The translations under genes and the position numbers were made by a program. DNA of 35,281 nucleotides from Stentor roeselii (taxonomy: Eukaryota > Ciliophora > Heterotrichea > Heterotrichida > Stentoridae), in assembly GCA_006503475.1 (NCBI GenBank), contig RSEH01000363.1, positions 1 to 35,281 of the forward strand, given 5' to 3'. Below the pieces are notes generated by a model. It was not told where the DNA came from, ran no database searches, and saw only the letters and a program-made list of their open reading frames with translations. Shown here one piece after another: positions 3,775 through 35,134 of this stretch (position 1 is its first letter; every line of letters begins with the position of its first letter).

Positions 3775-6700
3775 ATGAAATTTGATAAAAAGACAAGAAA
3801 CTTTGATCTTGAATCAAACAATTTATCTGATTTCCAAGAAGAAATCAAGAGTATCGATTCAATAAGAAAACCGAGGCTGAACGATGCCGAGTTAGAAAAA
3901 ATCGATCAAGAGGTGTTAGAAGCTTCCGATCATCTAAGAAAGGAACTAGAAAATAAAGATATCGAGAATGACGGTCTTTGTATCCCGATTATCTTCTCCA
4001 TCCTCATAGCAGTCTTTTTACTTCAAATCTCCAGGGTGTCGAATTCTTACAACCTAAAAAGCATCAGTTCTTCCCTGCTCAATACAGATGAAAAAGGCTT
4101 TCAGATTAAGAAACTAAGCGACTTAGACCCCTTTCTCAGAGAACGAGTCATTAGTTCAATGCTATCAATCTCAGAAACCCACCGCTATATCGCCCTGGTT
4201 GGCCTGAAGCTCACACTGAAAAAGTCAAGAATAATTAAGATTCCATATCCGAAATTCTCATTTCCCAGGTACGTCAATGATTATCAAGGGAGTGAAGGGC
4301 AGGCGAATGAGAAAAAGTCAAATGATGGACTTTGGGACTATGACTCAGACTCTCAAGGATTCTCCGAGTATTTCACCAACGCCTCAATTCAACAAGCCCT
4401 CTCAAGGTGGCGGGAAATGAAGTCTTTCTGGCTGGACTCAGAATCATTTATTTCACTTGAGATTCATTTGGTGACTCATTGCAGATATACTTTCACTACT
4501 TCTTATTTTTCCAAAAAAATCACTTTCAAAGGTTCTGGAAAATTTGAGTTCACAGAGTTTTGTCAAGGATTCAGCCCAGAGATTTTCTCTGATTCAGAAG
4601 AAATTTTCACTTCAATTGTAATTTTTTTCAGTTTCTTGATTGTTTGCTACTTCATTCAATTATACCATTTTTTAAGCAGATATCGAGTAGTTATAAGAAG
4701 GTTTTTGACAAAGTTTGAACTAGATCTTAACTTATACGACTATCTAGAAGTTATTTTTATTGTTTGTATCACGATTACAGTTGTTTTTTTTATTAAACTC
4801 GACCTCGCAAGTATCAACAAGTTTTAATTGCCTTTAAGTGATAGGGATTTAGACAGCCTAATCGACCATTTGTCTGAATACCGTCATTTTATCAGAACTG
4901 CTTCATTTTCTTGCCTTTTTAGCGTATTTCGATTAGTCGCTCTAATGAAAGTCCAGTTTCCGTCCTTTGGAGTGCGTTCGAAACTATTAAACTATCCCAA
5001 AAAGATATGTTTAACGTTTGCTTCATAACCTCTGTGCTTTTTTGTGGATTCATCGTTTCCGCTCATGTTGCTTACGGCACCCATGGGGAAAACTTCAGCA
5101 GTTTATCATTTTCTGCAATAGAGTTCTTTCAAAGCATGACTGGAAAAGTGACCTTTTCGACTTGCTTAGAGTCTTACTGCATCGTGGTTACCTTGATTAC
5201 CATATTGTTCATTATTTTGTTTTACTTTGTGCTGATCAACTTGTTTTATGCGGTGATAATCAGCACTTTTTCCATGATTAAGGCAAAAGATCGACTGGTA
5301 ATCGCTGCAAAAACTGAAATCGTTAAGGATACTACGAAAGAGTTACTAAGTATTCTTATTGGTTTTTTTAATTTCGACAAGAAGTCACTTCTTTATAGGG
5401 AAGCCAAAGAATATAAACATCTGATAAAAGTTAATTATACTTCCATGACCAATGAAAACAAAGAAAAACTTCAAAACCTTGAAAAATTCATAAAAGGGCA
5501 GATGAATATCAGTTTCTATCAGAAAATCAAATTCAATTTCAGCTCTTTAAGAGCTTTTTTATATAAGACTAATCCAATTTCTCAAGAGTTTTATGTTGAA
5601 AAATTGAACAAAAAAATCAGAAAAATTCTGGTTGATGAAAAGGATAAAGAAAAAGTCCATCAGTTGAGAGAGTTTGATGTTGAATACAACTTCAGAATAA
5701 TCAGAGGGCTTTTTTGCTATGTTTTGTTAGTTATTTTCTTTTTATTCACAATCATTTCATTTTTAAATATAAAGCCTTCATACGAGCTCAGTAAAGTTAA
5801 TCACGACTGCATCAATCAAATAATTACTGGCGACTCAAAAACAGAAATAAAGAATATTGATACTTTAGAACAGATTTATAATATAAGCAGGTCTCTAGTT
5901 AATTCACTTCTCAGTTCTTCATGCAATGCACAGAATTATCTTGATTTCAATGGATCAGTTCGGCTTACCATTCAGATTTACTTGCATGAAAGAAACCCAA
6001 GTTCGTTTTCTAAAGAGATTTTTCCGTATTTTATCACAGGAAAATTAAATCACTCTGAATTTCGAGGAAAAATTACAAAAATGTATTACTACCCAAGCCT
6101 TAAAGGAAGCCAAGATTCATACAAGCTTCAAGGAGGAATAAATTTTACATCAAATAAGTGGAATTATTTACAAAATTTTTTTGATAAGGTCGAATATGAC
6201 AATATTTTAAACGATGCTAAATTGTTAACTATTGAATGGGTAACATTAAATTCGAATCTTGATTTAATTACTTATAATTTAGCATCGTTTACTATTGGCA
6301 TTGATGGAATTTTGCAATTTGATTTCAAATCAGTGCCAATCAGTCAGTATTTTTATTCAAATAATGAAAAATCAATGATTGCGTTGATTCTGATAAGTTT
6401 GGTTCTCTGCTGTTACTTTTTAATTGCAATCTTGATTGATTTAGGGGAAATCTGGAGATCAGTTAATAAGTTAAGAGTTAAAAGAATGAGAAAAAATAAT
6501 GAATTAGATCAAGTAATTGCAGAAGTATGTGGGTCGAAAACTGATGACTTAGATTCTTTAGCCAGTTCTTATTTTTCCTTCAAATTTAAGTCTATTCTGT
6601 TTGGAGTATACCACTATTTTTTGCAGCTTTTAAAAATCATTTACATTTATTTTGAAGTCCCTATAAATCTGCTTGAAACTATATGCATTATCCTGACATT

Positions 6701-8195
6701 TGCTACTTTAAACAACTTAATTTATGTGAGTTTTGACCTGTTCGATATAAACAGCATAAGCGAAGCTGCCCTTGCTGCTGATTACGTTGATTATATAAGA
6801 AAAATCGCAGCAATCAATTCAATGATATTGCTGATTCATTTTCTGTCATATCTTCAAATATTTTCTCGAATTTCGAATCTTATAAGAATGATAATGAATG
6901 CAAGGTTGGACTTTATATTTTTCATGATGATGTATTTCATGATTTTATTTTCTTATATTTTCTCAGGTCATATTTTAATCGGTTATTTTCATAGCGGCTT
7001 TTCTACGATTCCTCTGTCGTTATTTTCATGTTATTTTATGCAGTTTGGCGAATACGATCACCGAAAATTTACCAGAGCTGACAAATACCTAGGAATTCCT
7101 TTTGTATTTTTTTATGTGATCATTGTTATCTTTTTCTTGACAACGATGTTCACAGCTATTTTTTCAGGAAATTATCAGAAAGATGCTCATATTCACAAAT
7201 TGGGAACTTTTGAAAAAATAAAAAGAACGATTAAAGCAAGGTGGGAAAGAAAAAAGGTCATTGTTTTAGTAAACAATATGCATGAAGATCATGAAAACTT
7301 TTTTTCTACAATTAATGAATTGACCATATCCAAATATGATGATGAAGATATTAAAGAGGAATTTAAATTTGATGAAGCACCCAGAAAAAACACTGATCAG
7401 ATTAACTTTTTTTCAGCCCTTGAGAAGCAACTTTTGCTAAAGAATATCAAACTAAATTTATCAGGGTTAAACCAGAATTTTACTTTTAAATACATAATGC
7501 CGAGTCTGATTCCTTACGTCAATCAACTAACTTGGAAAGAGTCACTGATAAAAGAAAAAGTGCAGATTTGGAATGGTCTTTCAATTCAATTGAAAGATGA
7601 AACAATACCTCATAAGGAGATAAATTTTCCAAGTGCAAAAAGAAATGATTATACAGAAATACAGTTTGAACTTTGGACGAGTTTGACTTTGCCTGAAAAA
7701 ATTGAAGTATGGAAAGGTAACATGTGTAACGAAGGAAGAGTTGCTATTTGGAAAATTGAAGAGAGTTTCCAAGATTCATTCAACAACTGGGATCGATTAA
7801 ATATTAAAGAAAAGATAAAAAAATCAAAAGAATTTCTAAAAGGTAAAGAAGTGGTTCAGGAACTATGGAGATCTCTTCCTCGCTTTTCAATTATTAAACT
7901 AAATCTACTCCTTAGCCTTCAAGAAAAGAATCAATATGAAATAGTCATGTATCTGTGCTTATGTGATGCAATAGACAATCCGATCTTCATTGATACGATA
8001 GACCAGCAATTAGAAGACATTCTTGATGATGCTATATATACAATGAACCTACAAATTTGCCAATTTCATGGAGAAAAAAACAAATTCAAAAAAATTACTG
8101 ATTTGAAGAACTCAGCAATCGAAGAATGTGAATCCTTGATTGACTTTAAGAGTTCATTAAAATCGAAGTTATTGCGCTCGAGGAATAGAAAATAA
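3775..8195 (+). CDS. Tandem (2x6 TM) polycystin-type cation channel, first module disrupted
   Basis: It encodes two consecutive polycystin/TRPP-like modules. Module 1 has TM1 near 3985-4050, an extracellular polycystin-type region, TM2 near 4615-4670, TM3 near 4740-4800, TM4 near 4880-4945, TM5 at 5007-5065, a pore segment near 5085-5160 and TM6 near 5180-5275. Module 2 repeats this layout from 5700 to 7170. A long charged cytosolic tail with Trp-containing repeats follows. Two problems lie in module 1: an in-frame TAA at 4825-4827, and a frame change (one base missing) near 4945-4955, where TM4 residues LMKV continue as SVLWSAFETI in another frame. An 18- or 24-nt intron (4821-4838 or 4821-4844) could remove the TAA and would keep frame, but both are longer than the other introns here. 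The following 3.2 kb are fully open, which argues against an old pseudogene. The family call is firm; intactness is uncertain. Confidence 0.8.
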
Positions 8196-8289
8196 ATTTT
8201 AGGTATATATTAGTTAGTTCTAAGCTAAATAATGATTATAAATTTGATTTTACAATCCTATAAAAGATTCAATAAAATATTATAAAAAT

Positions 8290-9597
8290 ACTTTAAGACT
8301 AAGTACTAGTCCAGATTTCGGGTCATTAAACATAATAATTCGATACCTATTCGATATAAATTTAGAAAATCTCCCAATCAAATCACAAAACAACATTTAC
8401 CATCTTATGATTAATTATCCAAATATTAAAAATTATCAATTATTTACACTTACAAACAATTTAAAAATTGCAGAGATATTTTCATTAATTTTGTTAGATC
8501 TTTTAAATATAAAAAGTTTGAATGAATGCTTCAACTTAAATGAAATAAAGAATTACAATATTCCTTGTGATTCGTTTAAATATAATTTTAGCTCTGATTT
8601 AAAACTGATACTTAAAAGTTTCAAATTCTTCAAAGTGAAATTTTTTCGCTTAGATCTGCGAAAGAAATTTTCTTAAATAAACTCGAAAAAGAATGTGAAA
8701 AAATTTTAGAGGATTATCGAGATATTTTAAAAACTGCTAAATTGGAATTCTTGAATACTCCTTGTTTAACTGATCGGATAAATGTTTCAAATGAAATCTT
8801 TTACTTTATTTGGGTTTTTCTGATGGATATGAAATCTAGAAAGAATCTTAGAGAAAAATTTCATACTTCAATAAAAAGTCAGCAAGGCATTGGGTTTTAG
8901 ACTATTACACTAAACTTAAAACAATAAAATTCTTAGGTCCTTTTTTGCAAGATTTTATATTCATCGCATTAGCTGCTCAATCGTATGATAAAGATTGGAA
9001 TTATTTTTTTGAGTCAGATTCTCTTTCTATTAAGCAATCTTCTTGCTTTTCACTTGTGTTTTGTGATGAAATTTCAAAGCTATTCAGAAAATTATTAGCT
9101 CATGACTATATAATTCCTTTACCGTCAAGCTTGACAACTTATAATTTAAACATATTTTTGAAGATTTATGATATTAGTTCTGTTTTTTAATGTCCGCCGA
9201 GGTACTTTTTTGCTTGGTTTCTTACTTTATTACATGAGTTAGCTCATTTTCTTAGAAGATATACAAGCAACACCTTTTTTGAATCAAAGTCAAGACAGCT
9301 TCGAAGAAATAACTCAAATGTCCCTGAGCCTTTTATTAATTTAACTGAAAACTTAATCGATGAACAAGAAATCAGAGGAGAAACTGGAAAAGAAGTCGAG
9401 ATCAGTTTTTGGAACCACAAGATTTTATAAATGATTCATCAGCAAAGTATTTTTTGAAAGGTGATTTTGAAAACGAAGAGTTTATGAATAAGATAAAGAG
9501 AAAAAACTTGAAAACACTGAGTCGCATAGCACTATCGAAAAGTAGATATCCGAGGTTTTTTCTGGGGGATAAGAAATGTGGACTTAGTAGAATGTAG
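8290..9597 (+). pseudogene. Copy C: 5'-truncated, multiply broken family member
   Basis: It begins about 95 bp after the polycystin stop, without the pseudokinase N-lobe. From 8290 to 8676 it is open and aligns with residues around 215-320 of copy D (SLNIIIRYLF matching SLKLLIEYLY). A frameshift in the T run near 8641 follows, then a two-base loss near 8888. An internal deletion of about 110 bp near 9103 removes the segment before DYIIPLP. A TAA at 9188, where other copies read on, and another frameshift near 9397 (GTCGAGATC against GTCGAAGATC) complete the damage. The HELAH segment is still readable near 9234. It is closest to copy A (shared LNKLEKEC and FCDEISK words). Clearly non-functional. 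Confidence 0.85.
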
Positions 9598-9674: not shown

Positions 9675-11693
9675 ATGGAAAGCTTAATTTTATCAAATTC
9701 TTTATTTTGGGAGAATCCTTCAATAGACTTCGACAAACTTGAAAAATACGAAGAAAATGAACATTGTGATGAAGTTCTAGCTTATTTCAGAGGAAAAATA
9801 GGTATAAATGAAAAATGCTATTTAAGGAAATTCACATCTAATGCTGAAAGGGTAAGGGAAGTAGCTGAAAGAGAGTTAAAAATTATTATGAAATTAAGAG
9901 ATCTAAAAATTCAGGATAATTCATTGGGATACTTTTTCATCCATGAAGAAACTTCTTCTTCATTTGTATGGGTTTCAAAATCATATCCTTTAAAACTATC
10001 TGATGTGATTTACGAAAATGCTGATAAGAAATTAAGAGTCATTTCAAGTCTCATAAAAGTTGTCTATACTTTAAACTCAAATGATATTTATTATTTAATC
10101 TGGGATCCAAATAAAATTTTTATTGAAGGCGATGATATAATTTTAGGAGACCATTTCCTTGCAGATCAATATGATTCTAAAGAAGATTTAAGAATATTGT
10201 TAAAAAATATAAAACTTACCAGAAAAAATTATTTTATTTTGGATTTTTACAAATTATGCATAACATCAACAAAATTAGATTCTAACTTATTACGAAAAGC
10301 AGAAAATGCAGATATTAGTTCTTTAAAGCTATTAATTGAATATCTTTACAATATTAAATTTGAAGATCTTCCATCTGTGGTGAATAGAAAAACAAATCAT
10401 CCTATGCTTGATTATAAGTCAATTAAACACTGTCCATTATTCAAAATAACTGGGAATTTAAAAATCGTTGAAATTATGTCATTAATTTCAACAAACACTT
10501 TGAACCTAAATCAATTGAAGGCCTGTTTCCAAGTAAATGAGATAAAAGTATATCAGGCACAAACATTTCAAGAAAATTTCGAAACCATTTGTTTTAAAGA
10601 AATTTTAAAGTCATTTCAAACCCTTCAGTTAAACATCTTTTCATACAGATCCTCCAAGGATTCTTTTTGTAATAAACTAAAGAAAGAATGTAAAAGCATC
10701 TTATCAAATTATTATAATATTCTAGAAAAATCAAGGGAAAAATACTTAAACACTCCATGTTTGACTGATCAAATAGACGTTGCAAATGGAATTCTTTACT
10801 TTATTTGGGTTTTCCTTATGGATATGATTTCAAGTGAAAAATTAAGAGAAAAATTTCACATCTCGATTAAGAATCAACAAGGCCGCAAGGCGCTTGATTA
10901 TTATAATAAATTAAAAGCAATAAAATTTTTATGTCCTTTTTTGCAAGATTATTTTTTATTAGCCTTGGCAGCTCAATCATATGATAGCTACTGGAACTAC
11001 TTTTTTGATTCAGATTCTCTTTTTATTAAACTTTACTCGTGCTTCTCACTTATGTGTTGTAAAAATATCGTTAATATTTTTAAAAAACTATTAATGCATG
11101 AAAAAATACAAAGAATTTTAACAGTTTATTTGGATGCAGAGCTCAAAAATAAAACCTTGGAAATCATTTTCAATCATGCTCTACTACATGTCTATATAAT
11201 TCCTTTACCGTCTACCTTGCATGGCTTAACAACCTATAATTTAAACATATTTTTGAATATTTATGATATTCATTCTGTTTTAAATTGTCCACCAAGGTAC
11301 TTAGCTGCTTGGTTTCTTACTTTATTACATGAGTTAGCTCATTTTCTCAGAAGATATACAAGCAATAACTTTTTTGAGTCAAAGTCAAGACTTACTCCAA
11401 GAAATAACTCAAGTGTCCCTGAGTCTTTTATTAATTTAACTGAAAACTTAATCGATGAACAAGAAATCAGAGGAGAAACTGGAAAAGAAGTCGAAGATCA
11501 GTTTTGGGAACCACAAGATTTTATAAATGATTCATCAGCAAAGTATTTTTTGAAAGGCGATTTTGAAAACGAAGAGTTTATGAATAAGATAAAGAGGAAA
11601 AACTTGAAAACACTGAGTCGCTTAGCACTATCGAAAAGTAGATATACAAGTTTTTTTTTGGGGGATAAGAGATGTGGTTTAAGTAGACTTTAA
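9675..11693 (+). CDS. Copy D: intact pseudokinase-like / HExxH metallopeptidase-like protein
   Basis: 672 aa, no signal peptide or membrane segment. The N-terminal region (about 1-200) is laid out like a protein kinase. It has a beta3-like RKF with Lys52, an alphaC-like ERELKIIMKL with Glu67, and a hinge-like stretch near 96-104. The catalytic loop lacks HRD (NDIYYLIWDPNKIFI, 136-150), and GDH (158-160) stands where DFG is expected, so a kinase reaction is unlikely. The middle is helical and unrecognised. The C-terminal part has HELAH at 552-556 and, 45 residues later, ETGKEVE (601-607), the arrangement expected for HExxH zinc ligands plus a downstream Glu. The ATG at 9675 is supported by an identical start context in copy B. 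It is the only undamaged member of a local array. Its function and substrate are unknown; the protease call rests on the motif alone. Confidence 0.75.
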   Translation: MESLILSNSLFWENPSIDFDKLEKYEENEHCDEVLAYFRGKIGINEKCYLRKFTSNAERVREVAERELKIIMKLRDLKIQDNSLGYFFIHEETSSSFVWVSKSYPLKLSDVIYENADKKLRVISSLIKVVYTLNSNDIYYLIWDPNKIFIEGDDIILGDHFLADQYDSKEDLRILLKNIKLTRKNYFILDFYKLCITSTKLDSNLLRKAENADISSLKLLIEYLYNIKFEDLPSVVNRKTNHPMLDYKSIKHCPLFKITGNLKIVEIMSLISTNTLNLNQLKACFQVNEIKVYQAQTFQENFETICFKEILKSFQTLQLNIFSYRSSKDSFCNKLKKECKSILSNYYNILEKSREKYLNTPCLTDQIDVANGILYFIWVFLMDMISSEKLREKFHISIKNQQGRKALDYYNKLKAIKFLCPFLQDYFLLALAAQSYDSYWNYFFDSDSLFIKLYSCFSLMCCKNIVNIFKKLLMHEKIQRILTVYLDAELKNKTLEIIFNHALLHVYIIPLPSTLHGLTTYNLNIFLNIYDIHSVLNCPPRYLAAWFLTLLHELAHFLRRYTSNNFFESKSRLTPRNNSSVPESFINLTENLIDEQEIRGETGKEVEDQFWEPQDFINDSSAKYFLKGDFENEEFMNKIKRKNLKTLSRLALSKSRYTSFFLGDKRCGLSRL

Positions 11694-16467: not shown

Positions 16468-19400
16468 TTACACAAGTTCACTAATTAAAGAATAATCCTC
16501 TCTAACCTTCATAACCTTCAAACTTCTAGCAATAAACAAAACTCCAATCTCATCATACATCTCTCCCTGCAAAAACAAAGAACAACAGAATTCATGATCA
16601 GGGCGACAAGCTTCAACGAAACAAACTGCCTCTTCCTTTTTAATCAAAACAGCAAATTCCTTATCCGAAATCTCCTGATTAAAAAGACTAAAAACTTTTT
16701 TTCCATCAATCTCAAAAATCCCAAATTTTTTCGACTCAATAAAATCAATATTTTTTTCCACAAACTCAAAAAACATTGACTCGTCTTGAAAGTCCTTCTG
16801 AATCTTGAAAGGGATCCAAAAGACTTGACAATTTTTATCATTCGCCACTAAAAAGTACTTCTTTTTTCTGAAAATTTTCACTTTTACCTCCTGACCTGAG
16901 ATGTTTTTCACGAACTCGAAGACCGGGTCTGCCCTGGACAAGTCCGAAGGCGAATCAATTAAAAACTTTTGACTGCAGGTCAAAAGCTTGCCCTTTTCAT
17001 GGTCTTTAAAGTAAAGTCTTGGAAAAACGTTTTGCATTAAAATTCGTTTTAAAGGACAGTCTTCTGGGTAGCCTTCAAGAATCAGGGACTTGAGGAAAAC
17101 TGTGAAACTTTCTGAAGCATTTTTGGCTTCTATTTTGAGAAATGTCTTGAAAACTTTGCAGTTTAGATCGAATGGATTTTTGTTTATTTCGAATGTCGTC
17201 TGGAAATCCAGACGTAGCTCTTCTTCGGGGTTGGAAGTCGGAAGAGAAGGAAAGTCTTTTTCGTTTTCGAGAGAAAGACTTGATTTTGAAGATGAAGGGT
17301 CGATCGGGATCTTTAAAGCGAGTGTCAAAGGACTTGTTGAGACTTGTGACTCGGAAGAACTTTCAAAGCTTTTCACTGGGTTTAAATCGAGATTTGTCTC
17401 TTGCATTGAACTTTCTGAGTCGTTTTTACTTGAAATCTTTGAAGATGAACTCTGAGTTTTTCGAGGAGTTAAGATTTTTTCTGTTGTTTTTTCGAGACTT
17501 TCAGGAAATTTACTTTTTTGGGTAGAATCTTCGACTTTCATGACAGTTTCTGGAGATTCTTCTTGACTTTCCTTTTTCTCACTTTGATGAGATTTCTCAT
17601 CGAAATTCATATCAGAATTTTTTTCAATTTCCTGAAGACATTGTTCCTCATTTAAATAAATTTCCTTTCCTTTAATTTCAACCCGTTTTCCAAGATCTTC
17701 CTCAAGACATTGTTCCTCATTTAAATATATTTCCTTTCCTTTAATTTCAACCCGTTTTCCAACATCTTCCTCAAGACATTGTTCCTCATTCAAATAAATT
17801 TCCTTTCCTTTAATTTCAACCCGTTTTCCAACATCTTCCTCAAGACATTGTTCCTTATTCAAATAAATTTCCTTTCCTTTAATTTCAACCCGTTTTCCAA
17901 CATCTTCCTCAAGACATTGTTCCTTATTCAAATAAATTTCCTTTCCTTTTATTTCAACCCGCTTTCCAACATCTTCAGCAAAAGAACGAGAAGTCCTCAA
18001 AGGTAAATATTCCGAATCAAACATGCTGCCATCATTGACGTCCTTCACAAAAATCCCAAAAGCCTTTCCTTTCAAATAAACCTTGACAGAGATCTCAGTG
18101 CCATTTGATATCTTTTCACCTTCATACAACAAGAGCGGCAGACTTTCCAGACTTTCACTTAAAACCAAAACTTCTTCTTTGATCTTCAACTTAGGAACGA
18201 TTTTCTCTTCAATGTCCTTCTTGCTGCTGAAGCCTTTTTGGACTTTGACTGAAAATTCCTTCTGACTTTTGACGCTTTTGCCTTTAATCAAAACTTCATT
18301 TCTTTCATTTGAGAAGCAGTCAAGGATCAAGTCTTCTTCTCCGACTTTCCTAAGACTTCTCTGAACATGTTTAAAGCAAGGGTCTTTAGGTTTCTCAGTT
18401 TCAGGCAATCGAAGTTTGTGATTCGAGTCGAATTCGAGAGTGTTGAGGAAGGCCTCAAGGTTTTTTACTTGGTAGTCATTCAAAACTGTGCGAAAAACAA
18501 GTGATTTTAACTGAATGTTGAAAATTTCTAGAGTTTGGATTGCGCTTATCTGATAAACGAGGACAAAGAGGTACTGGGAATTTATTTGTTTCCAGGCTGA
18601 CAAAAGAACGTGACAAGGAGAATGATAAGAAAAGTACTTATTTTTCAGAGGACTCTTCTTTAACCTCAAGTTTTTCCGACAGAGAAACCCTCGAAAGCAT
18701 GACTGGATGAAAATTATATTAGCTTCATCAAAGACCTCTACAAAACTTTCTTTCTTGACAGGAGAAACTTCTTCAAATGATAGGAACTGGTCTGTTTGTG
18801 AGACGTTGTCAGTTCTTGACATGCCTGTGCCACTTTCATTATGAAGAACAGAAAACTGTGAACTGGGCGTAACAAAAGACCTATCAGGTTCACTTCGAGT
18901 AGGCAAGACACGTATTCCGCTCTGAGAAGCGATTTTAAGCTGCACTTTCTTCTCATACAACGGCGGCCTGGCAATGATTCTCTCAATTTCTTTCTTATAA
19001 TGCAACATCTCATTGCTAACCAATTTCGCTCCGCTTCCAGGGCGCAGATAATGACTTGACTTGCGACTCGAGGCACGTGAAGAGTCCTCTCGTTTGGGTC
19101 TCTCAATTCTATTTGCGCCTTTTTGCTTGAAATTCGCAGAGACAGGTCTGGGTTTTTGATAAACTTCATTTTGAATGCTCAGAAAGGCCTGCTGCGCTTC
19201 TTTCAACATTTCCTGCATTTCTGGAAGCTTTTCCAGAAGACTCACCGTCTTTTTGAAGAACTTGCAGGCCTCATGCAGATCTTTCAAGTGGACTTTCTGC
19301 GTCGCATAATGAAAACACGCGTTAGCAAAGAGTTTCTGCAAGTTTTCACTAAGAGAAGAAAATCTAGAAAAGCCTTCAACGATTTTAAAAGCTTCAGCAG

Positions 19401-19839
19401 CGGCTTTTTCATGTTTTTTCATCTCAGATAAGATAGAAACAAGGTTTAAATGAACAGCCGCTCGTTCAGGGAATGGAAATTTTGCGGTTAAAGATAAAGA
19501 ACAGGCTTTTTCTGAGTATTTCTTCGCCTGGATGACGTTGCCAAGATTTTTATAAGTGCAAGCGAGGTTATTATAAACAGAGCACTTGTCAGTCACAGGT
19601 ATTGTCGAAGACTCCTCAACGACCACCTTGACCTCCTGATAAATCCTCAGCGTTTTGTGAAGGTCAGGCAAAGCAAGAGAGTCTTTCAGGATTTTCGAGA
19701 TCAGAGATGAAATCAAGCCGCCCGGGGATGACTCCTGAATCTGCTCCACATATCTAATCAACTGAACCGCATCAGACCAGCGGTTCTTTTTTATGTAAGC
19801 CTCTGCTGTTGTCAGCACCTTTTGTTCGAAGCGTTCCAT
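16468..19839 (-). CDS. Large TPR and IQ-motif protein with internal 23-aa repeats
   Basis: 1123 aa, soluble. Residues about 1-230 are TPR-like helices (for example SVYNNLACTYKNLGNVIQA). A basic, Ser-rich linker follows. Near residue 376 there is an IQ motif (IQSCFRGFLCRKNL), a probable calmodulin-binding site. Several beta-rich stretches that resemble one another follow, interrupted at about 622-736 by five near-identical 23-residue repeats (GKRVEIKGKEIYLN). Then come a low-complexity Ser/Glu linker and a final beta-rich domain. No enzymatic motif is visible; a scaffold or cytoskeletal role is a guess. The start ATG lies 13 bp after the stop of the upstream beta-barrel gene, so its promoter must overlap that gene or the two share a transcript. 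It converges with the channel gene with a 175-bp gap. Confidence 0.8.
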   Translation of the reverse strand: MERFEQKVLTTAEAYIKKNRWSDAVQLIRYVEQIQESSPGGLISSLISKILKDSLALPDLHKTLRIYQEVKVVVEESSTIPVTDKCSVYNNLACTYKNLGNVIQAKKYSEKACSLSLTAKFPFPERAAVHLNLVSILSEMKKHEKAAAEAFKIVEGFSRFSSLSENLQKLFANACFHYATQKVHLKDLHEACKFFKKTVSLLEKLPEMQEMLKEAQQAFLSIQNEVYQKPRPVSANFKQKGANRIERPKREDSSRASSRKSSHYLRPGSGAKLVSNEMLHYKKEIERIIARPPLYEKKVQLKIASQSGIRVLPTRSEPDRSFVTPSSQFSVLHNESGTGMSRTDNVSQTDQFLSFEEVSPVKKESFVEVFDEANIIFIQSCFRGFLCRKNLRLKKSPLKNKYFSYHSPCHVLLSAWKQINSQYLFVLVYQISAIQTLEIFNIQLKSLVFRTVLNDYQVKNLEAFLNTLEFDSNHKLRLPETEKPKDPCFKHVQRSLRKVGEEDLILDCFSNERNEVLIKGKSVKSQKEFSVKVQKGFSSKKDIEEKIVPKLKIKEEVLVLSESLESLPLLLYEGEKISNGTEISVKVYLKGKAFGIFVKDVNDGSMFDSEYLPLRTSRSFAEDVGKRVEIKGKEIYLNKEQCLEEDVGKRVEIKGKEIYLNKEQCLEEDVGKRVEIKGKEIYLNEEQCLEEDVGKRVEIKGKEIYLNEEQCLEEDLGKRVEIKGKEIYLNEEQCLQEIEKNSDMNFDEKSHQSEKKESQEESPETVMKVEDSTQKSKFPESLEKTTEKILTPRKTQSSSSKISSKNDSESSMQETNLDLNPVKSFESSSESQVSTSPLTLALKIPIDPSSSKSSLSLENEKDFPSLPTSNPEEELRLDFQTTFEINKNPFDLNCKVFKTFLKIEAKNASESFTVFLKSLILEGYPEDCPLKRILMQNVFPRLYFKDHEKGKLLTCSQKFLIDSPSDLSRADPVFEFVKNISGQEVKVKIFRKKKYFLVANDKNCQVFWIPFKIQKDFQDESMFFEFVEKNIDFIESKKFGIFEIDGKKVFSLFNQEISDKEFAVLIKKEEAVCFVEACRPDHEFCCSLFLQGEMYDEIGVLFIARSLKVMKVREDYSLISELV
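17632..17976 (-). repeat. Five 69-bp coding tandem repeats
   Basis: Five units of 69 bp start at 17632, 17701, 17770, 17839 and 17908. They encode five copies of a 23-residue unit with core GKRVEIKGKEIYLN. The units are almost identical. In translation order the first two copies have NKEQ and the last three NEEQ; the last copy also has EDLGK instead of EDVGK. A unit length divisible by three keeps the gene open. Confidence 0.95.
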
Positions 19840-25780: not shown

Positions 25781-27211
25781 TCAACTCCTAATAGTATTAA
25801 TCAAATATTCTTTAAACTCTTGCAAAGAAATATCCCCATTTTTATCCTCATCAACCTGCAACAAAAACTCTCTCCACTCCTTTTCACTGACATTAGTAAA
25901 GCAACTCTTAAGTTCATCAAGTGACAACTTTCCACACTTTTCAAAGTACTTAAAAACCATCTGAGCCTTCTGATCACTAAGCAGTTGATTCCAGCTCATA
26001 GTAGCAACCAAGAACTCATTATAATCAATGAACCCGCTTCGGTCCATGTCGCATTTTTCAAAGATTTCCTCAGCTTCTTCAGGAGTGAAAAGTTTTAAAG
26101 AGGTGCTGGTTTCAACAAGTTCCTGTTTGCTGAGCTTTCCATTCCCATCAGAGTCAAGAGCTCGAAACATTTTAGCGATGGGAGACTCTTCCTGGTGAGT
26201 AAGCATCTGACTGGCGATATAGACGAGTATTGAAGAGACGATTTTATTGGTTCTCTATTTTTGGATTACCTTGAAACTCCTAAGATTGTCACAGTAACTC
26301 GTCTGAATGCTCATCAGTGAGTTGTCTGCCTCAGTCTTCAGCCACGGGTGCTTCAAAGCCAGAAGTGCTGAAATCCTTTTATCCTTATTCGGGTTAAGCA
26401 TTTTTCTCAGCAGGTCGATGCAACTATCAGAAACTTTCGACCAGGCCTTCTTGTGAAAACTCAAAACTTCGTTTTGAATGCGGGCCAGGTACTTTTCGTC
26501 AGTGTCATATTTGAAAGGAAAAGACCCTGAAATCATCATGTAAAGAATCACCCCGGCACACCATATGTCGACTTTTTCGTTGAAGTCTCCTGATAGCACT
26601 TCGGGGGCGAGATAGTTGGCCTGATTGGAAATTACGGAACCGATTTTACCTGAAAAAGGACTGGATGTCATTCGGCGACTCACTCCGAAGTCGACGATTT
26701 TTAACTTGCTGTCTGGGGTTTCGTTGGTTAGGACAAGGTTTTCGAGTTTTAGGTCCAGGTGGACGATTTTGTTTGAATGAAGGTAGTTTAGACCTGATAA
26801 TAAGTCAAACATCAACTTTTTCGATTTTTCTTCGGTGAAGGTCTTTTTTCTCTTTAGTAAGTTGAATAAGTCCCCGCCTTGTAGATATTCGCAGATTATG
26901 TAGTAACATTTTGGAGATTCTATGATTTCGAAGAGCTTCATTATGTTTGGGTGGTCAAGACCTTTAAGAATCTCGATTTCGTTTAGGATTAGAGATAGTT
27001 GTTGGGATGGAACTTGAAGTTTTATCACTTCTTTCATCGCTTTTTCTAAACCGGTCTTTCGATCACGAACTCTTGAAACTGATCCGAATGATCCTCTGCC
27101 TAAAGACTGAAGAATTTCATAGGAATCTTGTACATTTCCTTTTTTATTCATCACGTACTCTGACTTTTTGATGAGTAGATTTTCTTGTTGACTACTTTGG
27201 CAACAACCCAT
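25781..27211 (-). CDS. Calcium-dependent protein kinase (CDPK), two exons
   Basis: 471 aa. Exon 1 (27211-26270) encodes MGCC, an N-myristoylation/palmitoylation-type start, and a Ser/Thr kinase domain. It has a GRGSFG loop (about 38-43), an AMKEV Lys, the catalytic loop HLDLKLENLVL near 150, DFG near 171 and an APE segment (LAPEVLSG). The catalytic loop reads HLD instead of HRD. A 15-nt intron (26269-26255) leads to exon 2 (26254-25781), where the junction reads LRSFK|RTNKI...VYIASQ, the typical CDPK autoinhibitory junction. Four EF-hand positions follow: EF1 at 348-359 (DSDGNGKLSKQE), EF2 at 383-394 (DMDRSGFIDYNE), a degenerate EF3 near 414-429 without a usable loop, and EF4 at 449-460 (DEDKNGDISLQE). 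It phosphorylates proteins in response to Ca2+, probably at membranes. It ends at TGA. Confidence 0.95.
26255..26269 (-). other. 15-nt intron of the CDPK gene
   Basis: On the coding strand it reads GTAATCCAAAAATAG and is located between SFK and RTNKI. Its terminal TAG would stop the kinase in frame if retained, leaving a kinase without junction and EF-hands. Removal keeps frame and restores the canonical CDPK order. Confidence 0.93.
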
Positions 27212-27799: not shown

Positions 27800-28198
27800 T
27801 TAAGCGCAACCACATCCCGCCCCAGTTGACCAAAGTTTGAAAGTATTTCCTCCCCACTTGTAGACAGCGATGGCGCAGTTCAAGTTATTGGTAGGGTTGC
27901 AAGGAATGTTTCCACCATTGCAAGCGCCCCAGTTCATTTGATTGATTTGCCAGAGGCCAACATCGAAAGACCCATTAGTATTGTAGTTCGCAGCATTAGC
28001 ATTGCCACCACTTTCTTTATTCATGACACACTGGCAGCATGCCTGGTTCCATGTATATTTACTGCACCAGTATGAAATGCTTTGGGGACTTGTGGTAGTC
28101 CCACAAGGACAACTTGGACAGTTATTTGAAGGACAGTTGCCTCCACAGGTGTTTGCCATGATGCCTACAGCCAAGACAAATAAAATCACCAGTTTCAT
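27800..28198 (-). CDS. Secreted c-type-like lysozyme (GH22-like), copy 1
   Basis: 132 aa with a signal peptide (about 1-15). A short Cys-rich N-terminal segment (CGGNCPSNNCPSCPCG) follows. The core matches the c-type lysozyme active-site stretch without gaps: Glu62 in ESGGN, then 17 residues later Asp79 in FDVGLWQIN. This equals the Glu35-Asp52 spacing of hen lysozyme followed by DYG(I/L)xQIN. The end (NCAIAVYKWGGNTFKLWSTG) parallels the NCA...W part of that family. It should cleave peptidoglycan, either for digestion of bacteria or defence. Single exon, stop TAA. It is about 80-90% identical to the copy ending at 29696, by eye. Confidence 0.85.
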   Translation of the reverse strand: MKLVILFVLAVGIMANTCGGNCPSNNCPSCPCGTTTSPQSISYWCSKYTWNQACCQCVMNKESGGNANAANYNTNGSFDVGLWQINQMNWGACNGGNIPCNPTNNLNCAIAVYKWGGNTFKLWSTGAGCGCA

Positions 28199-29695: not shown

Positions 29696-30094
29696 TTAAG
29701 CGCACCCACATCCAGGGCCAGTTGACCAGAGTCTAAAAGTATTTCCTCCCCACTTATAACAGTCAATGGCACAATTCAAGTTGCTGTTCAAGTCACAAGG
29801 CATATTCCCTCCATTGCAAGCGCCCCAATTGACTTGATTGATTTGCCAAAGGCCAACATCAAAAGAGCTATCAGTGTTATAATTCATGGCATTAGCATTG
29901 CCTGAACTTTCATGAGTAACAACACATTGGCAGCATGCCTGATTCCAAGAATACTTACTGCACCAGTATGAGATGCTTTGGGGACTTGTGGTAGTCCCGC
30001 AAGGACAACTCGGGCAGTCATTAGAAGGACAGTTGCCTCCACAAGTATTTGCCATGATGCTCACAGTCAAGGCTAATAAAATCACCACTTTCAT
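29696..30094 (-). CDS. Secreted c-type-like lysozyme (GH22-like), copy 3
   Basis: 132 aa from the ATG at 30094, which aligns with the start of copy 1; the TATAAT sequence just before ATG is also shared. Signal peptide, Cys-rich segment and core are as in copy 1, with Glu62 in HESSGN and Asp79 in FDVGLWQIN. The sequence NYNTDSSFDVGLWQIN is even closer to the hen lysozyme stretch. It has an extra Cys (IDCYKW) compared with copy 1, which might alter disulfide pairing. Differences between the copies are concentrated outside the active site. Single exon, stop TAA. Confidence 0.85.
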   Translation of the reverse strand: MKVVILLALTVSIMANTCGGNCPSNDCPSCPCGTTTSPQSISYWCSKYSWNQACCQCVVTHESSGNANAMNYNTDSSFDVGLWQINQVNWGACNGGNMPCDLNSNLNCAIDCYKWGGNTFRLWSTGPGCGCA

Positions 30095-30676
30095 ATTATA
30101 CAACAATTTTATTGGATTTTTTAATGAAATGATTTAGGAACTATTTGATTGAAGATATGATGAAAGATTTAAATGAAATTATTTGATTTAAGTTTAATGT
30201 GATGTTTGTTTATTGGGTTTATTTTTACTATTGTTGAGAAGAATTTAGATGGATTTTTTGGAAGTTTAAGATTTTGTTTATGAGGAATAGTGTCTCTTGG
30301 ATTATCATTTGAAAATAATTCAGAGAAGCAAGATATTTATTCAATCTTAAAGAACTATTTTAGAAGTTACGAGTGATCTAGATTAGGATGATTATATTAA
30401 ATTTCAAGAAAACAACCAATATAAATCAGGGAAATCGCAGTAGTCTGAATGTTTGCAATTTTATTTGATAAATTCAAACTTTTATGATAAAAATCTTGTA
30501 AAATAATCCATTAGAAGATGTAAACATTCATTAAATCTGTTCAATCAAATACCTAATAAAAACAAAATATTCCGATATTAACTAAATTCCAAAAATCTTT
30601 AAACAATTTCAATCAAAATAATAAAGCCTCTCAATCCAAGTCCTAAAATCACTACTTAAATTTTATAATTACCACC
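30095..30676. other. Intergenic region upstream of lysozyme copy 3
   Basis: It holds the 5' flank of the lysozyme gene and, at the far end, the 3' flank of the zinc-binding protein gene. It is AT-rich with G/T-rich patches near 30180-30300. No gene or RNA was recognised. Confidence 0.45.
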
Positions 30677-32971: not shown

Positions 32972-35134
32972 CTATTTTTTATTACGGTGTATCGGGGAAT
33001 CTTCTTCAATCTTTGGAAGATGCGGCTCATCATCAAAGCTGATGAGTCTGCCCTTCTTATGTACGATGTTTTGTGTGCCTTCAGCAGAAGCCCAAAGTTT
33101 TCTAGTCCTTGGAGTCAAATACGGAGTTTTGGGTGAGCAGAAAGTCGATCCACGAGAAGGTGAAGTAATCGGAAGGCTCGCTCTAAGTGGACTCGAAAAG
33201 AAATTCTTCAAGTTTTCCGTTCCTTGACTTAAAGACTCTTTAAATCTCGGAATAAAGAACAAATTGTAAAACTTGATGATATCCCCAGCGCCAGTCACTT
33301 GTTTAAAAACATGTTCTTTCCCCGGGTTCTGAACTGAAAAGTTCTCAATCAAAGTCTTGAAACTCACAGGTTTAAACAACTTGCAAACCGCGTAAATCGA
33401 GCAAAGGACAACAGTGTCTAAAGTCCTATTTGTTAACAAGTCAACATTTTCAGTGATGCAAGTTTTGATGAGTTCCCAGATCCTTTCTTTCACCTCTTCT
33501 AAGATATCAAGTTGGTCAGTCACTTCAACCAGTTTCTGTGCCAGGTATGAAAGAATCCTTTTAAAGAAAATGTTGAAAATAGGAGACCCTGAAGATGTTT
33601 TTGACTCACTTACGAATTGACTCATCATTAAAAGAATCACACTGGACTCACTCCAGGCACTTTCATTGACGATATGATTTTCCACGTCTCTGAAGTGCCT
33701 TTTAAGAGAAATCGGGATTTTGCTGTCAAACTGAACAAAAGTCGTGATAATCTTCCAGAACTCAAAGACTGAAACCTGCGCCATTTCAAGAACTTGGCAA
33801 AAGTTCAAATTCAAGCCATGTGCGAAGACAATACTTTCAATTGCACAAGCGAGAGTAGCTGAATGAAAATTTTCATTATTATAAAGCGTGTTCAAATTTC
33901 CCTGTCTTTTCTGTTCATTTTTAATCATTCCATGCAAGGCATAAACATAAAGTTTTAAAATACTTTCACCTTTCGACTTTCCCTGAGCCTGTTCAATCCC
34001 TGAAAGATTTTCTTTTTCATTAAGTCCTAAAGTGAGTCGATTTCGAAAAGCTTCGATTTTTGCATAAACTGAGAAATTTGCGACACTATTATATTCTTCT
34101 AACAGTGAAGGGACTTGATTGAGTTGAATCTTTTTTACGATCTCTCGAAGCCAGTTGCTCAGTTCCATTGCCGAGCTCATCGGAGTGAACGAGTGCGGGT
34201 TCGGCGAGGACTGAACAGGAACCTCTCCTAATTTACTCTTAAGTCCATTGTCACTTTCACTGTCCCAGGTGATGATTCGCTTTGACTTCAACTCGACTTG
34301 AGCCTTTCTGTGTCTTGTTTGTTTTACAGGCGTTTTCGGCTGTTGCTTCTTCAAAAATTCAATTTCACTGAATTGAAAAGCTTTCAAGTTCGAAATGTAA
34401 AAATCAACTAAATGGTTGTGATTGTAATGAATGTGACTCGCTGCAAAGATACCTTCGAAGTTTTCCGAACCACATCGTAAAAGTTCATTTGTTTTAAGAC
34501 ATGCCACGAAAGTCTCAAACGAACTGATGGATTCTTGAAATTGTTCATTTTCCGCATTGAAGAGTCGTTGAAGGAAGTCTGCTGGAGCTGCTGATGAGAA
34601 ACTGACAGTGATTGGAAGATGTGAAAGTGCGAAGTGAAAAGCAGAAAGTAATAAACAAGCATTTTCAACTAAATCATTTGATTGCATTGACTGCCTTCGA
34701 ATGGAGATAAGGACCCAAATGATATCTCTCAGTTGTCCTGAAGACCCGGAATGTCCTTGTTTTTGTTCTAACTCGAGTTGAGCCCATTTCTCTAAAAACT
34801 TCTTGTAAAGCCGCCAAGCGAAGGTGAATTCTTCAATCATTCCTAAAGCTTGGACTCCCTCTGCTGGGCAGACAGTCTCTGTGAAAAGCTTGAAAAACTC
34901 GTGAAAGTCTTCAGGAGCTGAAAGATTTTTAAATAAATTCTGAAGAAAAGTGTTGGGCACTGATTTCGCTTGAAGTCCTGCTGATAGCACTGCAGCCGTG
35001 TATAAATATAAAGGTTGCTGTAATGAGTTACTACGTAAAAATAATTTACAGCTCGCTTCTGCCTCTCGGCAGGTCTCGCAGCTTAGACCTAGTTCTTGGC
35101 AGAAGGCCTGGAGACTATTTGAATCAAAGCTCAT
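32972..35134 (-). CDS. Retinoblastoma-family pocket protein
   Basis: 720 aa, single exon. The N-terminal region (about 1-230) matches the cyclin-like Rb N-domain in layout. The A-box begins near 313 with TPMSSAMELSNWLREIV, as pocket A starts in RB1/p107 relatives, and runs to about 500 (FHSATLACAIESIVFAHG, then VFEFWKIITTFV). The B-box (about 530-645) includes LDTVVLCSIYAVCKLF and ends with IIKFYNLFFIPRFK, the typical IKFYNxxY-like end of pocket B. The tail has several S/T-P sites (SPLR, SPSR, SPKTPYLTPRTRK), likely CDK targets. Pocket proteins restrain E2F-dependent transcription and the G1/S transition. Shorter than RB1 (928 aa) but similar in order. The start has no competing upstream ATG in frame. 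Confidence 0.9.
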   Translation of the reverse strand: MSFDSNSLQAFCQELGLSCETCREAEASCKLFLRSNSLQQPLYLYTAAVLSAGLQAKSVPNTFLQNLFKNLSAPEDFHEFFKLFTETVCPAEGVQALGMIEEFTFAWRLYKKFLEKWAQLELEQKQGHSGSSGQLRDIIWVLISIRRQSMQSNDLVENACLLLSAFHFALSHLPITVSFSSAAPADFLQRLFNAENEQFQESISSFETFVACLKTNELLRCGSENFEGIFAASHIHYNHNHLVDFYISNLKAFQFSEIEFLKKQQPKTPVKQTRHRKAQVELKSKRIITWDSESDNGLKSKLGEVPVQSSPNPHSFTPMSSAMELSNWLREIVKKIQLNQVPSLLEEYNSVANFSVYAKIEAFRNRLTLGLNEKENLSGIEQAQGKSKGESILKLYVYALHGMIKNEQKRQGNLNTLYNNENFHSATLACAIESIVFAHGLNLNFCQVLEMAQVSVFEFWKIITTFVQFDSKIPISLKRHFRDVENHIVNESAWSESSVILLMMSQFVSESKTSSGSPIFNIFFKRILSYLAQKLVEVTDQLDILEEVKERIWELIKTCITENVDLLTNRTLDTVVLCSIYAVCKLFKPVSFKTLIENFSVQNPGKEHVFKQVTGAGDIIKFYNLFFIPRFKESLSQGTENLKNFFSSPLRASLPITSPSRGSTFCSPKTPYLTPRTRKLWASAEGTQNIVHKKGRLISFDDEPHLPKIEEDSPIHRNKK

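Follow-up and report, generated by a model that had tools for sequence, protein, structure and literature searches.

A kinase-like front and an HExxH motif on one chain

What kind of protein begins like a protein kinase and ends around an HExxH motif, and what might the one half do for the other? The question is raised by an open reading frame of Stentor roeselii (9675-11693, + strand), which runs intact from ATG to TAA and encodes 672 amino acid residues comprising a pseudokinase-like region, a middle region and a zincin-like C-terminal domain. The frame lies in a window of 35,281 nucleotides that corresponds to the entire contig C303; the genome searched consists of 44.4 Mb in 522 contigs. 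The sequence-only reading had placed the gene in a local multi-copy array, and the array proved real, consisting of one intact and three broken copies, all on the + strand. Broken copy A (6-1045), equivalent to residues 331-670, is cut by the contig start, copy B (1111-2124) represents the N-terminal half, and copy C (8248-9594) is equivalent to residues 191-672. The 672-residue protein is 54, 54, 56 and 42% identical to four full-length paralogs on other contigs.

Beyond the window, four C-terminal queries located the C-terminal domain at 66 or more places of the 44.4-Mb genome at E<=1e-3, of which 46 carry an open frame of at least 300 residues and 12 one of less than 150 residues. Matches less than 1.5 kb apart on one contig were merged, and these counts are lower bounds; the loose-limit matches of the four queries numbered 35, 68, 54 and 62. 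Protein models, fragments included, were read from part of the 66 places, yielding 41, of which 37 hold the HExxH site and four are fragments without it. Among the loci numbered L001-L054, L006-L008 overlap the copies of the window, L014 repeats L004, L024 was replaced by the longer frame L054, and L012, L034, L039, L041, L044-L047 and L050-L053 gave no model, being fragmentary or disrupted where matched. L052 and L053 retain frames of 133 and 239 residues with the motifs HEFAN and HETFH, respectively. In a hand-made list of 41 places on contigs of known size, one of which (C89) matches the N-terminal part only, 24 are no more than 10 kb away from a contig end as against 13.2 expected from the sizes of their own contigs, a lean to be read with the proviso that many ends may be assembly breaks. 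A telomere-like repeat was found at the start of C244 and at the end of C396.

The N-terminal region is a predicted pseudokinase

The N-terminal region, residues about 30-230 (9762-10364, + strand), was initially described as a kinase-like layout with a β3 Lys52 and an αC-like Glu67, lacking HRD and carrying GDH in place of DFG, and comparison with the paralogs bore out most of this description. Glu67 is present and invariant in the 672-residue protein and its four closest full-length paralogs; the "GDH" corresponds to D159-H-F, the Asp of which aligns to that of DFG in a HMMER alignment with GCN2; and HRD is absent, with YYL in its place. The assignment of Lys52 is probably wrong, as the β3 place, which we take to be set by a V-A-I-K-x-hydrophobic register, is occupied by Arg51, and Lys52 is a Glu in paralog L005. 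Throughout the 11 kinase-bearing members of the family, the β3 place is Arg in nine, Asn in one, Ser in one and Lys in none, and the HRD Asp is lost from all 11, the HRD place reading YYL, YYF or NYL in the protein's own group and HGF, HGS or HGA in the sister paralogs. Asp159 is kept by all five members of the own group, as is Glu in the Glu67 column, which is also Glu in L016, L009 and L010 and another residue in L015, L017 and L011. Because the HRD Asp and the β3 Lys are both missing from 11 of 11 members, the N-terminal region is, judged by its catalytic positions, a pseudokinase and not an active kinase.

Pfam returned no kinase match for the 672-residue protein, L002, L005, L009 or L010, and its Pkinase matches to the sisters L015 (2.6e-5), L017 (7e-7), L011 (2.6e-7) and L016 (0.023) were all below the cut-off. 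A profile built from six sister N-termini, when searched against the PDB, matched kinases from 2.2e-4, with RIPK1, GCN2 and KSR first among the best 60 of 363 matches. With the own-group profile, searched to an E-value of 10, kinases made up 28 of 30 matches (GCN2 from 0.0089, TTK from 0.023), the remaining two being to TFIIIB B'' at 0.011, on a par with the kinases. Profile-to-profile comparison tied the own group to the sisters at 1.5e-8 and 1.7e-8 in two comparisons, and linked the sisters at 3.5e-9 to two genuine kinases encoded in the same genome, one of them partial; 13 reversed or unrelated control comparisons gave 0.012-0.83. Compared directly with the same two kinases, the own group yielded no signal (0.13), and its kinase ancestry thus rests on the sisters. 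Consistent with such an ancestry, a tree of the C-terminal domain, comprising 32 of the 41 models after nine fragments were left out, gathered all 11 kinase-bearing rows on the same side of one branch (with a support of 93/76, not starred). Descent of the N-terminus from a protein kinase, traced transitively via the sister paralogs, is well supported as a homology. Of the dead kinase fold originally proposed, kinase ancestry with lost catalysis stood by virtue of the transitive profile link, while direct comparison failed to uphold it.

The order of the αC Glu, the catalytic-loop region and a DFG-like Asp is that of kinase-fold pseudokinases of the PF00069 lineage (RIPK1, GCN2, KSR, TTK), with which the sisters also share an APE or PPE and a DxxxxG-like stretch. 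The Stentor protein differs from them in having neither the HRD Asp nor the β3 Lys and in carrying a peptidase-like core on the same chain.

The C-terminal domain is a conserved, zincin-like family

As delimited by paralog alignments and profile comparisons, the C-terminal family domain spans residues 477-672 (11103-11690, + strand). Translation of the frame located HELAH, a putative zinc site, at residues 552-556 (11328-11342, +) and ETGKEVE at residues 601-607 (11475-11495, +), exactly where they had first been noted. The domain defines a conserved family marked by HExxH and, further downstream, ExG(x3)E: 32 of the 37 site-holding models keep HExxH, in agreement with the initial claim of a C-terminal HExxH domain, and in the other five Tyr or Asn replaces the second His. 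That the region recurs in paralogs as distant as 21% identity makes the HELAH motif more than a chance occurrence.

In a 26-row alignment (A1), His552 and Glu553 are found in 26 rows, His556 in 21, Glu601 in 22 and Glu607 in 25, and Gly517, Gly603 and Cys667, the last lying near the C-terminus (11673-11675, +), in all 26; since the pattern used to select the rows demanded HE followed later by an Arg, conservation of these letters is built in, whereas that of the others is not. The alignment was built from the first models, leaving out L026 and L032 with their long inserts. Glu553 falls at what we take to be the general base position of known zincins. Roughly 30 to 300 residues separate HExxH from ExG, depending on the model. 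Glu607 is Ile or Met in six HExxH-keeping rows of the tree, Glu601 is replaced by Ala, Asp or Asn in four, and at neither place does L013 carry Glu; either residue, or both, may be the third zinc ligand and is regarded here as a candidate for it. The five members without the second His (L005, L022, L028, L033 and L011a) sit on separate branches of the C-terminal tree. The L052 fragment likewise shows an Asn/Tyr-type loss of the second His, and its residue at the place of the C-terminal Cys of L043 is Tyr. A C-terminal cysteine switch at Cys667, presumably analogous to that of matrix metalloprotease propeptides, was considered and is not favored, the five HExxY/N rows of A1 having retained the Cys.

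Neither Pfam, NCBIfam nor the PDB matched the C-terminal ~190 residues above threshold, a result that, as regards Pfam and NCBIfam, bears out the sequence-only reading. The best Pfam match, itself sub-threshold, was of YgjP-like (PF01863) to L031 (2.1e-5, 25.1 bits for a cut-off of 26), the same family reaching 0.024 in L030 and 0.19 in L025. SprT-like (PF10263) matched L031 over the HExxH region at 0.01, WLM (PF08325) the 672-residue protein at 0.094 and L019 at 0.12, Peptidase_M78 (PF06114) L020 at 0.14, Peptidase_M90 (PF06167) L023 at 0.17, and ATLF (PF07737) L029 at 0.092, the last read as an HExxH resemblance. Altogether, six of the 18 weakly matching Pfam families are zincins, matched over the HExxH region, and the other 12 are unrelated to them; NCBIfam added weak matches to seven families, of which two bear metallopeptidase-like names. 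When searched against the PDB, the 672-residue protein alone matched nothing, and the C-terminal profile matched proabylysin at 0.44 and nothing else. On the strength of weak zincin matches over HExxH, none of which reaches a cut-off, we label the C-terminal domain zincin-like by sequence and of no named family. HExxH is common to it and to the zincin families YgjP-like, SprT-like, WLM, M78 and M90 as well as proabylysin, and it is there that the sub-threshold profile matches fall; the Stentor combination of GxT, HExxHxxxR, ExG(x3)E-FG and a terminal Cys was, by contrast, not found in a named family. A C-terminal query against phage translations and another against plasmid translations returned no match, and scans of bacterial, archaeal and viral contigs, each seeded by two short peptides and thus apt to miss distant relatives, returned no relative.

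One core follows several different front ends

The same C-terminal core occurs on several different N-termini. In L054 (contig C183), a protein of 1326 residues, it is preceded by a long WD40 array (Pfam WD40, 2.4e-175) in which 13 units were recognized at 42-residue spacing, and two members of 376 and 377 residues consist of the core only. Concerted evolution of the WD40 repeats was considered and found no support, the 13 pattern-cut units having a mean identity of 33% and a maximum of 55%. Comparison of eight group profiles in 28 pairs, run without decoys, tied the groups to one another through the C-terminal part and several of them also through the preceding region. The own group matched the HEL group at 5.5e-12 over 254 columns and the WD40/core-only group at 1.5e-11 over 253 columns, and the weakest matches, at 2.5e-4 to 7.9e-4, were those of four pairs, the own group with L030, L016 with L030, L016 with L026/L027, and L016 with the L032/L035 group. 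The middle region of the 672-residue protein (residues 300-476; 10572-11102, +) is, according to these profile alignments, partly common to paralogs that have no kinase part, the overlap extending from alignment column 375 onward with the HEL group and from column 365 onward with the WD40/core-only group. The names "RRMlike", "UBL" and "HEL" served as group labels only and imply no fold. No ubiquitin-like N-terminus is claimed for L030, which matched a redesigned ubiquitin at an E-value of 1.5 only, nor an RRM-like one for the group of L032 and L035-L038, searches with L035 and with alignment A10 having given no support.

The compared paralog pairs are under purifying selection on average

The local array had been taken to suggest a role under changing selection, a suggestion that the substitution rates do not support. 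Gene-wide dN/dS (Nei-Gojobori) was 0.20-0.39 in 12 of 13 paralog pairs, indicative of selection that is purifying on average, despite the duplication and decay seen in the array; the thirteenth pair, which includes the disrupted L011, gave 0.50. The ratios of the three L001 pairs and of L018/L033, in which dS exceeds 1, are rough. In nine of 11 computable pairs dN/dS of the C-terminal part was below that of the rest, the exceptions being L020/L022 and L035/L036.

A pseudokinase-steered zinc peptidase is the favored reading

The reading that we favor, with a confidence slightly above even, is that of a pseudokinase-steered zinc peptidase belonging to a large ciliate paralog family with interchangeable front ends. 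The 672-residue protein is presumed, and probably is, intracellular. HExxH and a downstream Glu would bind zinc and cleave peptide bonds, and the kinase-like part would bind, but not phosphorylate, a ligand or partner, and such binding would bring the peptidase to its substrate or free it from inhibition. Paralogs lacking the second His would be non-cutting partners or competitors, or else be decaying; its loss on separate branches suggests that non-cutting members are either kept or on their way out. Zinc binding, catalysis and steering by the front end are all what we infer from the sequence. Inactive metallopeptidase homologs that have lost zinc-site residues do occur beside active members, according to the available part of one account (PMC11266112), where the families named (M1, M12, M13, M14, M24, M41) are other ones; the likeness lies in the loss of zinc-site residues from some members.

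A set of housekeeping or regulatory proteases, engaged in regeneration or in ciliary or cell-cycle proteolysis and equipped with front ends that select substrates, would be compatible with the favored reading and differ from it in the biological role assigned; we rate it as possible but on the unlikely side. Purifying selection on average over the 13 pairs fits such a role, as do several architectures on one core, which are what substrate targeting would be expected to produce, but the 20 of 66 places without a 300-residue open frame and the lean toward contig ends suggest a fast turnover that would be unusual for housekeeping genes.

Rather doubtful is the proposal that the C-terminal domain is no peptidase and retains its metal site in a structural or binding capacity, the family then being one of scaffolds or receptors. 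It draws on the five models, located on separate branches, in which Tyr or Asn replaces the second His, on the pairs including three of these members (L005, L022 and L033), which still show dN/dS of 0.28-0.31, and on the invariant Gly517, Gly603 and Cys667, none of which is known to be catalytic in zincins. Retention of HExxH by 32 of 37 models nonetheless argues for activity, as does Glu553 in 26 of 26 rows, albeit within the pattern by which the rows were selected, and recurrent loss at one and the same ligand looks like loss of activity among active enzymes.

An improbable reading, put forward as a possibility by analogy, is an NLR-like intracellular surveillance in which varied front ends would sense threat or damage and activate a zinc-protease effector, with dead-protease paralogs acting as brakes or decoys. 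Such an immune-like role would follow a modular logic like that of bacterial conflict systems, and these data hold no link to a pathogen. The bacterial NTP-dependent conflict systems combine, in the portion available of their description, disrupted kinase domains, propellers and peptidases, rarely metallopeptidases (PMC7159879); the likeness is one of modules, the organisms are others, and the prokaryotic and viral scans described above gave no relative. Highly improbable, finally, is that the kinase likeness is due to chance and the N-terminus an unrelated fold, for which the missing Pfam match of the 672-residue protein and the 0.13 of the direct comparison with two kinases could be cited, but against which stand the transitive profile link with its 13 clean controls and the concordant C-terminal tree.

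Neither the fusion nor the family was found described in the literature searched. A 2017 preprint by Reiff and Marshall, reportedly on the Stentor kinome, its expanded kinase families and novel domain architectures, may list it; its title alone points to new kinase fusions in a heterotrich ciliate, as here. The favored reading concerns a large family of peptidase-like proteins that match nothing above threshold in Pfam or NCBIfam, found in a heterotrich ciliate, the group to which the regeneration model Stentor belongs. It also concerns an architecture that combines, on a single polypeptide, a predicted dead kinase with a predicted, probable zinc protease. Should the regulation prove real, the 672-residue protein would show that pseudokinases can steer proteases in nature, and it might be a protist analogue of sensor-effector immunity proteins.

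Gene context and genetic code of the window

The window genes are eukaryotic, among them those of a retinoblastoma protein, a papain-type protease, a kelch protein and a calcium-dependent kinase. Under the standard code, frames of up to 1123 residues stay open, and 98 TGG codons were counted in 16 frames, indicating that Trp is not commonly written TGA; TGA terminates two of the 16. The kinase/EF-hand gene at 25781-27211 (- strand) reads through once a single 15-nt GT-AG intron is removed. The standard code and introns of 15-16 nt are reported for Stentor in the accessible text of PMC9505925, and introns mostly of 15-16 bp for Blepharisma, but with UGA read as Trp, in that of PMC9942806. By its standard code and 15-nt intron, the genome looks like that of a Stentor-like heterotrich. 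The product of 25781-27211 is a calcium-dependent protein kinase (Pkinase 5.1e-69, EF-hand 4.5e-23), and 32972-35134 (-) encodes a Retinoblastoma family protein (RB_A 2.8e-31, RB_B 1.5e-21). Two frames lie between broken copies B and C (3775-8195, +), the second of them encoding a polycystin-like channel (PKD_channel 5.3e-11). In a TPR/IQ protein (16468-19839, -), a repeat of 23 residues, EDVGKRVEIKGKEIYLNxEQCLE, occurs five times in frame. A second local duplication comprises two similar small lysozyme-like (SLT) proteins (27800-28198 and 29696-30106, both -); L040 holds a frame resembling these SLT proteins, and its contig terminates in a telomere-like repeat.
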